IMG/VR virus record: IMGVR_UViG_3300021379_000258
Span: 1 to 30,023 of that record
Direction: 5' to 3' (one strand)
Source of the DNA: a virus
Length of the DNA stretch: 30,023 nt
Of this stretch, positions 2,905-22,741 are shown one piece after another. The notes below the pieces were generated by a model. That model searched no databases, was not told where the DNA came from, and worked only from the letters and a program-made list of their open reading frames with translations. Each line of letters begins with the position of its first letter. Within the stretch, counting starts at the first letter, position 1. Both the position numbers and the translations under genes were made by a program.

Positions 2905-4452
2905 ATGACCAGATACGTAGGATTTAGTGAGTTCTATCACGATGCGGGTGTCTCCGTAATCGAAGAGGACGGTACAGTTTCGTATGCAACCCATGCGGAA
3001 CGGTGGTCTAAGACTAAGAATGATGCAACTATTCCGGAGTCTCTCTGGGATTTCGTGGGTCAACAAGATGACGAAGTGATCACCTTTTACGAGGATCACA
3101 AAGTCAAGTATGGTATCAGAGGCGGCATTGCCGCTCATGCTGGTATCTACAATAAGTTGACAGGTGATCTGACTCCCGGCCAAATCACAGACAAGTATGG
3201 ATACACCAAGCATCTGAACGCACACAAGATGGTGCCTCTCTACGAGGCACTGGTCTTCGACACTCACCACCTCCACCACGAATCACACGTTGCAGGCGCA
3301 CTGTACACCCGCCCTTGGGATTCCCTTGAGGATACCGTCTGCGTGTCCATTGACGGCGCAGGAGAGGTTCAGTGTTCGGTCATCATGGATACCAATTACA
3401 ACGTCATCAAAGAGTGGCACTACCCCAAGTCTATCGGGGTCATCTACGGAACCGTAACAAAGGCACTTGGTCTTCGTCCCCTTGAGGATGAGTATGTTGT
3501 TATGGGACTAAGTTCCTACGGAGAGGATGAGTTCTCTGACTGGATTTACCAGAAGTACCATGAGTTCAGTGATGAGGCTCATGAGATTGAGAACGGTGTT
3601 AAGATCGGAGAAGAGGACTCAGAGAGAGAACAACGCAGACGTTTGTTCAGGGATGAGTTGATGCACAAGTGTAAAAAAACTTCTCCGGAGAACGCCGCTG
3701 CGTCTGTACAAGAGTTCGCACGTCGAGCGATTCTGGAGATCATGGAGATCGCCCGCCAGCATGGTTCTAAGTTAGTTTACTCCGGCGGGTGTGCACAGAA
3801 TGTGGTAATCAACTCTTTGATCCACGAGATGTTCGATGAGGTACACATCGCAATCGCTCCCGCAGACTCAGGGTCTTCTCTGGGGTGTGCTGCAAAGACT
3901 TGGGCAGAGGCGACAGGAAAGGACAAACTCATCTGGACTCCCTACATGGGAACCAACATTGACCGTGAGATCAACCCCAAGGAAGTCGTGGATCATTTGA
4001 TGCAACACCAGTACTGTGGTGTCGCAAATGGTCGTGCAGAGTTTGGGCCACGTGCACTGGGGAATCGATCCCTGATTGCAGACGTTAGGTTCGATGTCAA
4101 GGACACCGTGAACGAGATCAAACGCAGACAGAAGTATCGTCCTTTCGCCCCCGCAATCCTAGAGGAGTTTGCGGATCAATACTTTGAAGGGCCAATGAAT
4201 GAGTACATGCAGTTTACCTCCAAGGCACTTCATGACTATTCGTCGGTGACTCACGTAGACGGAACCGCACGTGTACAGATTGTACGCAAGGACTGTCAGT
4301 CAGTGTTCCGTAAGATCATTGAGGAGTACTACGAACGCACGGGCGTTCCAATGTTACTAAATACTAGCTTGAACATCCGTGGAAGACCTATGGTTGATGA
4401 TGTCAAGGACGCAAAACTGTGGGAGAGTACATATAATGTCAAGGTGTTCTAA
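2905..4452 (+). CDS. NodU/CmcH-family carbamoyltransferase
   Basis: A 515-residue protein that would transfer a carbamoyl group from carbamoyl phosphate to a hydroxyl, through a carbamoyl-adenylate. The Kae1-like N-terminal domain shows FYHDAGVSV (10-18), HHLHHESHVAGAL (121-133), the SIDGAGE phosphate loop (148-154) and YSGGCAQN (292-299). The C-terminal domain shows GRAEFGPRALGNRS (376-389), RPFAPAILEE and NTSLNIRGRP. All hallmark segments are present and the length is near the usual 550-600. It ends shortly before a small membrane-protein gene. Acceptor is unknown; neighbouring glycosyltransferases suggest a sugar. Confidence 0.92.
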   Translation: MTRYVGFSEFYHDAGVSVIEEDGTVSYATHAERWSKTKNDATIPESLWDFVGQQDDEVITFYEDHKVKYGIRGGIAAHAGIYNKLTGDLTPGQITDKYGYTKHLNAHKMVPLYEALVFDTHHLHHESHVAGALYTRPWDSLEDTVCVSIDGAGEVQCSVIMDTNYNVIKEWHYPKSIGVIYGTVTKALGLRPLEDEYVVMGLSSYGEDEFSDWIYQKYHEFSDEAHEIENGVKIGEEDSEREQRRRLFRDELMHKCKKTSPENAAASVQEFARRAILEIMEIARQHGSKLVYSGGCAQNVVINSLIHEMFDEVHIAIAPADSGSSLGCAAKTWAEATGKDKLIWTPYMGTNIDREINPKEVVDHLMQHQYCGVANGRAEFGPRALGNRSLIADVRFDVKDTVNEIKRRQKYRPFAPAILEEFADQYFEGPMNEYMQFTSKALHDYSSVTHVDGTARVQIVRKDCQSVFRKIIEEYYERTGVPMLLNTSLNIRGRPMVDDVKDAKLWESTYNVKVF

Positions 4453-20698: not shown

Positions 20699-21031
20699 AT
20701 GCAAGTAGCAGTTATCCACGGTGCGTTCGAAGACTCAGCCCGTACAGTAGCCTTCGTTGAGGTCGGTGATCGCCCAGTCATGGAGGCACTTGAGTATGCC
20801 TACCATCGGACTCAGAACCTTGGTGGTTCGTGGTCTCGTGGTTCTAAGATTGAGTTCGGAGGTGAGACTTATGACAACCCCGACTTTTCACCAGACGTGA
20901 CCGTCATGGCGGCTCTGCCTGTCCACGAAGGTGTCACCTATGGTCTGCGTTCTACCTCTATGGGTGACCACATGTTGTACGGTAACACCAAGTACGAAGT
21001 CGCCATGATGGGTTTTGAGGAGGTTGCATGA
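20699..21031 (+). CDS. Unknown conserved protein (110 aa)
   Basis: A 110-residue protein, MQVAVIHGAFEDSARTVAFVEV at the N-terminus, with a beta-rich look and an aromatic/Gly patch (NLGGSWSRGSKIEFGGETYDN) in the middle. It has no recognisable catalytic motif. The strong upstream promoter and the ribosome site AGAGGA support it. It overlaps the next gene by 4 bases (ATGA). Function unknown. Confidence 0.7.
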   Translation: MQVAVIHGAFEDSARTVAFVEVGDRPVMEALEYAYHRTQNLGGSWSRGSKIEFGGETYDNPDFSPDVTVMAALPVHEGVTYGLRSTSMGDHMLYGNTKYEVAMMGFEEVA

Positions 21032-21321: not shown

Positions 21322-21367
21322 GTTATATGCATATAGCAAAAAAGTCTAAAAATACCAAAAAAAAGTG

Positions 21368-21396
21368 TTGACTTTTGACGCCAGATCGGAGATAAT
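21368..21396 (+). promoter_or_regulatory. Sigma70 promoter in front of the structured leader
   Basis: TTGACT at 21368-21373, 17-base spacer, GATAAT at 21391-21396. The start would be near 21403. The spacer contains the left arm (21375-21385) of an 11-bp inverted repeat. Confidence 0.65.
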
Positions 21397-21428
21397 AGTA
21401 CCGTTGATTGGGAGAGTTCTGGCGTCAA
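21375..21428. repeat. 11-bp inverted repeat around the promoter
   Basis: TTGACGCCAGA at 21375-21385 and its exact reverse complement TCTGGCGTCAA at 21418-21428, centres 43 bases apart. The left arm is between the -35 and -10 boxes and the right arm lies just after the start site. A 10-bp palindrome, GTCAATTGAC (21424-21433), overlaps the right arm. The placement suits a repressor bound at two sites. Confidence 0.55.
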
Positions 21429-21557
21429 TTGACTAGGAACCTTGGTTCACTGCTTCTCTCCCTTTGGTTTTTGTTTTGGGGTACGGCCCTGTGGTAACAG
21501 GGGGCCTCCACCGGATGCTCGGGACATGCAAACCCTGTCGCCCTGCCCCACTTTTTT
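21403..21557 (+). ncRNA. Candidate structured leader RNA ending in a U6 tract
   Basis: About 155 bases between the predicted start site and a T6 run (21552-21557), with no ORF. Helices seen by eye: GGGAGAG (21410-21416) with CTCTCCC (21456-21462); a closing stem TGGGG (21477-21481) with CCCCA (21546-21550); inside it CCCTGT (21487-21492) with ACAGGG (21497-21502), and GGGACA (21521-21526) with TGTC-G-CC (21536-21542, one bulged G). A hairpin followed by U6 is terminator-like, and GAGG (21558-21561) and ATG 21569 follow at once. It could be a riboswitch-like attenuator or a free-standing small RNA. I do not recognise a known class. Confidence 0.5.
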
Positions 21558-21568
21558 GAGGATTGATT

Positions 21569-21700
21569 ATGTCCTATGATGACCTGATGAATGACCTGAT
21601 GTGCCTCTGTGAGGTACGTGGGGAGTTGTCTCCCGAAGACAACGCAATTGTCGAGGCACGTATTCAAGAAATCCAGAAGCAACTTGAGGAGCTTTCATAA
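21569..21700 (+). CDS. Small acidic helical protein (43 aa)
   Basis: A 43-residue ORF: MSYDDLMNDLMCLCEVRGEL, then a helical acidic stretch EARIQEIQKQLEEL. Ribosome site GAGG ends 7 bases before ATG 21569, directly after the T6 tract of the candidate leader RNA. Its stop overlaps the next ATG (TAATG). It is the first product translated downstream of the leader and so the most likely one controlled by it. Function unknown. Confidence 0.6.
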   Translation: MSYDDLMNDLMCLCEVRGELSPEDNAIVEARIQEIQKQLEELS

Positions 21701-21873
21701 TGAAACCAATGCACATGGTCGAGTCTATGTCTGAGAAGGAACTGGCTGCTCTCCAGCGTCAGTGGTCTGATAACGAGAAGAAGATCAATGAACTTCTCAA
21801 CTGGCAACAGGAGATCGATAAGGTGTTCGACAAGATCGATCAAGGTAAGATTCTTATTTCAGGAGCAGTCTAA
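21700..21873 (+). CDS. Small helical protein (57 aa)
   Basis: A 57-residue ORF joined by TAATG on both sides. MKPMHMVESMSEKELAALQR starts a predicted long helix or coiled coil through NWQQEIDKVFDKIDQ. The two flanking TAATG junctions support translation as one unit with the genes at 21569 and 21873. Function unknown. Confidence 0.6.
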   Translation: MKPMHMVESMSEKELAALQRQWSDNEKKINELLNWQQEIDKVFDKIDQGKILISGAV

Positions 21874-22190
21874 TGCAAGTAGGTGATAACATCGTCCGTC
21901 CGTTCTGCACTACCCCCTCTCACGGTTATCTCCGTGTCCCTCTGTCCGATCTAGATGAACTAGGTATCCGCAACAAGATCACCTCGTTCTCCTACAAGAA
22001 CGCAACCCATGCGTTCCTAGAAGAAGACTGCGATTACGAGACCTATATGTCCGCCATGGCTGACAAGGGTATTTCGGTCAAGATCGTGGAACGTGGTGCG
22101 CCACGTGGTCTGCGCTCGTTCGCTTCGTTCCCACCCCCGTCTGAGGGTCAGTTTGCGGAGTTGTTCAACCACCCCCAGATGCACTACTAA
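21873..22190 (+). CDS. Unknown protein (105 aa)
   Basis: A 105-residue protein. An N-terminal beta-rich part (MQVGDNIVRPFCTTPSHGYL) is followed by a segment with ITSFSYKNATHAFLEEDCDYE and a Pro-rich C-terminus (FASFPPPSEGQF). No motif, signal or membrane span is seen. It ends the small operon that starts behind the candidate leader RNA; the next gene has its own promoter. Confidence 0.6.
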   Translation: MQVGDNIVRPFCTTPSHGYLRVPLSDLDELGIRNKITSFSYKNATHAFLEEDCDYETYMSAMADKGISVKIVERGAPRGLRSFASFPPPSEGQFAELFNHPQMHY

Positions 22191-22303: not shown

Positions 22304-22741
22304 ATGAATATTGCGATTGAAGGTCAAATCAAGAACAAACACCTTGTCCGGTTCTATGTCGAGCAACTTGTCAAGGAGTTGGGTCTTGGTCGGTTTCGCA
22401 AACCCGTCATCACTGTCCGGTTTGTGACTAACGCAGAAGGTGCGTTCGGTCTCTGTGACGGTAAGAAGGGTGAGTACGCTGAGATCGTCATAGCTCGCAA
22501 GTGTCCCATCACTGAACGTAAACTTGGGTTCGTTGAGATGATGCAGACTCTTGCACACGAGATGGTTCACGCCCGACAGTTCATTCGGGGTCAGTTGAAG
22601 AACACTGGTGGTTGGGCTTGGAAAGGTCGCAAGGCAGATGGGTTTGAGTATGACAATCAGCCTTGGGAGAAGGAAGCGTTCCGTCTTGAAAAGAAGTTGT
22701 TCATGGACTGCTTCCCGCACTTCGCTCCCTTCAATAACTAG
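22304..22741 (+). CDS. SprT-like zinc metalloprotease-type protein
   Basis: A 145-residue protein with LAHEMVHARQFIRGQL: His85, Glu86 and His89 form HExxH, and Glu124 in WEKEAFRLE is a candidate third zinc ligand or family Glu. SprT/Spartan-like domains in bacteria and phages have this size and an early beta-rich part (TVRFVTNAEGAFGL). Possible roles are protein cleavage, including DNA-protein crosslinks, but the substrate is unknown. No signal peptide is seen, so it is cytoplasmic. Own promoter at 22246. Confidence 0.75.
   Translation: MNIAIEGQIKNKHLVRFYVEQLVKELGLGRFRKPVITVRFVTNAEGAFGLCDGKKGEYAEIVIARKCPITERKLGFVEMMQTLAHEMVHARQFIRGQLKNTGGWAWKGRKADGFEYDNQPWEKEAFRLEKKLFMDCFPHFAPFNN

Follow-up and report, generated by a model that had tools for sequence, protein, structure and literature searches.

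The DNA examined here, hereafter the window, is a 30,023-base IMG/VR virus record that comes from a marine T4-like phage. Its gp32-like protein is nearest to that of C48C1 (68%), followed by those of the Melnitz methylophages (57% identical); C48C1 and the Melnitz methylophages are classified as Kyanoviridae. The locus consists of a promoter, a leader with two elements, termed modules A and B, and an operon of small genes. The P1 strands of module A, the linker, the T6 tract and the Shine-Dalgarno sequence were read directly from the letters, P2 of module A was judged on an alignment of nine units, and P3 on compensatory changes. The features are listed below (related records carry L numbers).

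21368 to 21396, plus strand: sigma70-type promoter, with -35 TTGACT (21368-21373), a 17-nt spacer and -10 GATAAT (21391-21396); predicted +1 at about 21403
21375 to 21385 and 21418 to 21428: inverted repeat TTGACGCCAGA/TCTGGCGTCAA, centred on the predicted +1
21403 to 21462, plus strand: module A, single-unit form (GUUGAUU, P1, the unit UGG..GACUAGG-P3-CACUG, P1 3' strand)
21410 to 21416, plus strand: module A P1 5' strand, GGGAGAG
21456 to 21462, plus strand: module A P1 3' strand, CTCTCCC
21419 to 21436, plus strand: module A P2 (CTG/TAG and GTC/GAC around AATT)
21437 to 21448, plus strand: module A P3 (GAAC-CTTG-GTTC)
21448 to 21452, plus strand: invariant CACTG after P3
21463 to 21476, plus strand: U-rich linker joining modules A and B
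21477 to 21550, plus strand: module B, with a conserved joining strand at about 21507-21520
21477 to 21483 and 21544 to 21550, plus strand: module B P1, TGGGG(TA)/(TG)CCCCA
within 21477 to 21550, plus strand: module B P2, a GNRA-capped hairpin, GGCCCTGTG-GTAA-CAGGGGGCC
within 21477 to 21550, plus strand: module B P4, GACATG/CCTGTC
21552 to 21557, plus strand: T6 tract 3' of module B, an intrinsic-terminator-like end
21558 to 21561, plus strand: GAGG Shine-Dalgarno (SD) sequence, immediately 3' of the T tract
21569 to 21700, plus strand: operon ORF 1, 43 aa, start codon ATG at 21569; homologues in L004 (76%) and C48C1 (61%)
21700 to 21873, plus strand: operon ORF 2, 57 aa; in L403 its homologue comes first after the leader
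21873 to 22190, plus strand: operon ORF 3, 105 aa; homologue in L004 (70%)

The promoter, the two closed stems, the U6 tract and the ribosome-binding site were all found at the positions given by a first-pass annotation of the window. The same annotation called the stretch free of ORFs, which holds for the plus strand, where none is listed, but not for the minus strand, where an 85-aa ORF with a TTG start crosses the leader; this ORF has no gene-like signs. Its mention of two internal hairpins was partly right, the supported inner helices being P2 and P3 in module A, and the GNRA-capped P2 and P4 in module B.

In related loci, 167 promoter-like sites have a start codon behind them, and for 95 of these the predicted 5' UTR measures 20-29 nt, so the 165-nt leader of the window is exceptional. 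In L004, the nearest relative of the operon, a similar promoter lies about 25-30 nt ahead of the gene and the leader is absent; the leader is thus dispensable and, considering also the usual 5' UTR length, an extra element rather than a standard one. In L003, which is 99% identical to the window around the leader, the leader itself is identical. Between leader and first gene, no second promoter turned up that could serve the operon. At the leaderless gene of L005 (3310-3340), the first stretch transcribed, GTTGATTGGGGGAGA, also serves as the Shine-Dalgarno sequence and has nearly the same letters as the P1 5' strand of module A, which suggests a possible origin of the leader.

Folding energy was dropped as evidence for an RNA in the window: the leader folds at -51.6 kcal/mol against -49.2 +/- 4.1 for dinucleotide shuffles, an ordinary z of -0.60 that makes single-sequence folding uninformative either way, and the minus strand gives a z of -1.82. 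In terms of conservation, the leader is far beyond chance.

Module A was found in five lineages besides the window (L392, L399, L400/L401, L403 and L404), which makes six with the window, as L400 and L401 share one leader. Its 5' part is 87% identical over 52 nt in L245/L392, and L399 was found next. The module A model scored 89-95 bits in two further phages, themselves members of the model, and a three-sequence model scored 29-40 bits in L400, L401, L403 and L404 (four records, three lineages), model E-values being rough. The viral collection, most records of which are fragments, was scanned with exact patterns and close-protein searches only, so the lineage counts are lower bounds. No phage record searched contained more than one leader of this kind.

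Nine units of module A could be aligned, with the letters UGG..U..GA.UAGG..CACUG invariant. The counted pairs show standard pairing in 62 of 62 cells. P3 has compensatory changes in three of its four pairs, a count inflated by kinship among the nine units; among the changes are two positions where G-C replaces A-U and a third where U-A replaces C-G, and the P3 covariation score was reached by none of 500 shuffles. The outer three pairs of P2 form wherever letters exist and never vary across the nine units, so P2 is neither confirmed nor refuted by covariation. L392 and L399 retain both P1 strands; an indel on the 5' arm is accompanied there by a T-to-C change on the other arm. A folded leader with a terminator-like end ahead of a small-gene operon, as proposed in the first pass, is supported by these homologues, whose covarying stems are located at the predicted +1 of promoters. 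The RNA family is real, since the RNA recurs at the corresponding place in relatives and its stems are preserved there.

In all six lineages P1 of module A starts 13-14 nt past the -10 hexamer of a promoter with the consensus TTGAC[A/T]-N16/17-[G/T]ATAAT, and this constant offset ties the RNA to the transcription start. An ORF with a ribosome-binding site stands shortly behind the last RNA module, again in six of six. L400, L403 and L404 carry a tandem form in the order P1, unit 1, hairpin P4, unit 2, P1; P4 differs in sequence among the three, and each version can form a hairpin at the same place. Module A is the only module of the leader in L392, L399, L400 and L404, with no poly-U after it in L404. 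In L399, L403 and L404 a gene whose product ends in FYRSWYA lies just behind module A or within about 1.1 kb of it, and in L400 such a gene lies upstream; four of the six copies thus share a comparable neighbourhood in which the small genes turn over. The idea of a mobile cassette, a leader hopping among unrelated genes, is weakened by this recurrent gene. A coding origin of module A was rejected, as the TTG frame is lost in L392 (by-eye reading).

Module B is 95% identical over 75 nt to its homologue in L264/L393, found by a gapped pattern, and 83% identical to that in L195/L394. The L195 copy was recovered by a 14-mer scan of viral contigs followed by re-alignment; the 3' part of the leader matches it at 78% over 108 nt (E 2e-16), and it lies between tRNA-Leu and tRNA-Thr genes. 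The L393 copy begins 4 nt past a stop codon, ahead of a SprT-like gene that shares its PHROG with the window gene at 22304, and the gene preceding it belongs to the family of the window gene at 20699, linked through L004. Common to the three sequences are the closing stem, a 9-bp hairpin with a GNRA cap (GUAA or GUGA), the joining strand CUCMAYCGGAUGCUC and a third hairpin. Pairing holds in 95.7% of cells, compared with 43-62% when the partners are slid, and double changes occur in two pairs, in P1 and P2; the shuffle control, limited to three sequences, is weak (58 of 500). A leader peptide or coding origin of module B was rejected, since a 1-nt insertion in L264 breaks its short ATG frame.

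Poly-U follows module B in the window and in L195. L393 has a C run instead (TCCCCCC within 4341-4360), which makes ordinary intrinsic termination at this copy unlikely. U-rich linkers comparable to that of the window precede module B in L195 and module C, described below, in L403. Modules A and B do not travel together, and the leader of the window is composed of two separable RNA modules, each occurring alone elsewhere. Upstream of module B in the L195 tRNA cluster (about 1175-1080, minus strand) is a strong hairpin, GGGACAGGGTTC..GAACCCATCCC, with a fold z of -2.8; it occupies the place that module A has in the window, and the module A model does not match it.

Module C, apparently another conserved RNA of these phages, was found in L400 (1286-1354), L403 (locus positions 1487-1413, minus strand) and L406, i.e., C48C1 (1142-1205). 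It consists of a terminator-like stem with a conserved head (approximately TTTCGAAGATTCCGACTGACAGGTAAGTG) followed by poly-T, the stem sequences differing among the three phages. It lies ahead of tRNA-Pro in L400 and between genes in C48C1. In L403 it stands in the position of the window's module B, as a GTGGGG..CCCCAC stem with the conserved head, and the order is promoter, tandem module A, U-rich linker, module C, GTTTTTT, GAGAGAGG, ATG. The T6 tract directly abuts the ribosome-binding site in both the window and L403. The L403 leader precedes an ORF (1712-1891) with 72% identity to the window ORF at 21700.

The first-pass statement that the RNA belongs to no recognised class was borne out: Rfam had no match for the window region or its homologues at either gathering or permissive thresholds, except that the homologues yielded tRNAs (Rfam 15, gathering cut-offs). 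A match to Qrr (window 21345-21447, minus strand; 20.7 bits against a cut-off of 50) was treated as chance. ARAGORN and Rfam found no tRNA or tmRNA in the window, whether one- or two-piece. In cultured phages and plasmids, blastn found no relative of modules A or B and only module C in C48C1, and the A and B models found none in C48C1, T4, Melnitz, HTVC008M, P-SSM2, S-SM2 or SynMITS9220M01. One strict pattern run on bacterial genomes returned three Actinobacterial stretches lacking wider similarity.

Several known systems resemble parts of the leader. In phage transcription attenuators a promoter is followed by a structured leader and a U tract right before the ribosome-binding site, which is also the arrangement in the window; modules B and C differ from them in having conserved elaborate heads and in that one takes the other's place in different phages. 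Glycine-type riboswitches have tandem aptamers, two similar units per leader, and so does module A of L400, L403 and L404; however, in module A one P1 encloses both units, single-unit forms exist and Rfam gives no match. The T4 rnaC and rnaD RNAs (species 1 and 2 stable RNAs) are, like module B of L195, non-coding RNAs inside a phage tRNA cluster, but a relationship was rejected: there is no sequence or structure homology, and the best covariance-model score was 9.9 bits, outside rnaC/rnaD. Leader RNAs of the manA and wcaG types (RF01745, RF01761) are structured RNAs carried by T4-like marine phages in potential 5' UTRs of their genes (PMC2864571), a setting shared by the window leader, which differs in its associated genes, its two modules, one with a tandem form, and the lack of an Rfam match. 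Melnitz and other marine phages are reported (PMC9004378, PMC2864571) to carry the glnA glutamine riboswitch, which, like module A, is compact, sometimes tandem and present in phages related to that of the window, whereas the window leader adjoins no nitrogen gene or tmRNA and has no Rfam match even at permissive thresholds. Judged by these comparisons, the leader is an undescribed family within a known kind, the leader RNAs of T4-like marine phages.

The leader probably decides if the downstream genes are expressed. The reading that we favour, with confidence that is about evenly balanced, is a cis-acting transcription attenuator of riboswitch-like layout, forming a new 5' leader RNA family. 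Transcription would start at the early-type sigma70 promoter heading the small-gene operon, and module A (+1 to about +60), a conserved junction domain of one or two units, would fold first. As the sensor, it may bind a metabolite or a host or phage protein, and depending on its state the polymerase would either stop at the U6 tract behind module B, with release of a leader RNA of about 155 nt, or continue into the operon. The terminator would be module B (in L403, module C), with its closing U tract immediately ahead of the ribosome-binding site. That termination occurs at U6, that module A has a binding partner and which way control runs are inferred.

Attenuation in cis is favoured because module A comes first and is strictly kept, the U tract abuts the ribosome-binding site, and C replaces B in L403; the division into a sensor part and a terminator part is best argued from L403, which has the same composition at a related operon. 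The G+C-rich stem (21477-21550) and the T6 tract (21552-21557) upstream of a gene have the layout of an attenuator. Points against it are the C run behind module B in L393, the four lineages in which module A occurs alone, the leaderless promoter of L004, and the closing stem of module B, which encloses about 60 nt and not a simple hairpin loop; a simple terminator scan omits this stem, as it permits only 3-8 nt inside a stem. In the predicted folds of L400 and L403 the P1 5' strand is alternatively paired with UCUCCC.

Module A shares with riboswitches the character of a conserved structured 5'-UTR domain with compensatory changes. It may, though this is an unlikely extension, represent a new riboswitch class of marine T4-like phages, in which single or tandem aptamers sense a metabolite or infection signal and exchangeable terminators gate an early operon. 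The association with genes of one pathway that is usual for riboswitches was not found among the phages with module A. The downstream genes differ among phages and match no family with a known role, which leaves no basis for guessing a ligand.

The leader's own promoter and terminator-like end are also those of a free small RNA, and an RNA of about 155 nt might act in trans, the operon being transcribed by read-through. This alternative is possible, if rather doubtful, and is kept in consideration by the L195 copy of module B, which has a tRNA gene on either side, a setting of the kind that houses the stable RNAs C and D in T4, and by the operon of L004, in which the leader is dispensed with. 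It does not account for the ORF and ribosome-binding site shortly behind the last module in all six lineages; furthermore, no second promoter for the operon was found behind the leader, and the two modules travel separately.

An improbable alternative is a 5' element of mRNA stability or processing, in which P1 (at about +8) shields the 5' end and module B serves for RNase processing or protection of the 3' end. P1 does lie 7-8 nt from the predicted +1 in six of six lineages, and module B is intergenic in L393 and L195, where processing is expected; however, such an element would need neither the conserved junction letters UGG..GA.UAGG..CACUG nor the tandem form.

Still less probable is a translational operator, with a phage or host RNA-binding protein acting on module A in a regulon of early operons. 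Module A precedes different genes in different phages, two similar tandem units suggest a dimeric or cooperative binder, and the P1 3' strand is a sequence of the anti-SD type, which pairs with the SD in the predicted fold of L403. A regulon would sit poorly with at most one such leader per phage record searched. Opening P1 in silico in six leaders gave no consistent change in SD access, so a translational switch is not supported in general, and SD sequestration as the switch was rejected. A CsrA decoy, suggested by GGA motifs, was considered as well.

A DNA-level operator, the inverted repeat being a repressor site and the RNA stems incidental, was rejected as very improbable: its perfect 11-bp arms flank the start site, but the left arm is missing from the promoters of L392, L399, L400, L403 and L404, where module A is kept, and the right arm belongs to the conserved unit of module A.

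Structured regulatory RNAs known from phages are few. In at least six related marine phage lineages module A is fixed to the transcription start; it exists as single and tandem units and is joined to terminator-like modules that can replace one another and that recur between genes and within a tRNA cluster. A ligand or protein identified for module A would show what is sensed by these phages at an early stage of infection, and the set of modules provides seed alignments for a wider search. A further locus in L078 (about 2582-2790) has a promoter (TTGACA..TATACT) followed by about 150 nt with no assigned gene before the next promoter, and possibly encodes another non-coding RNA.
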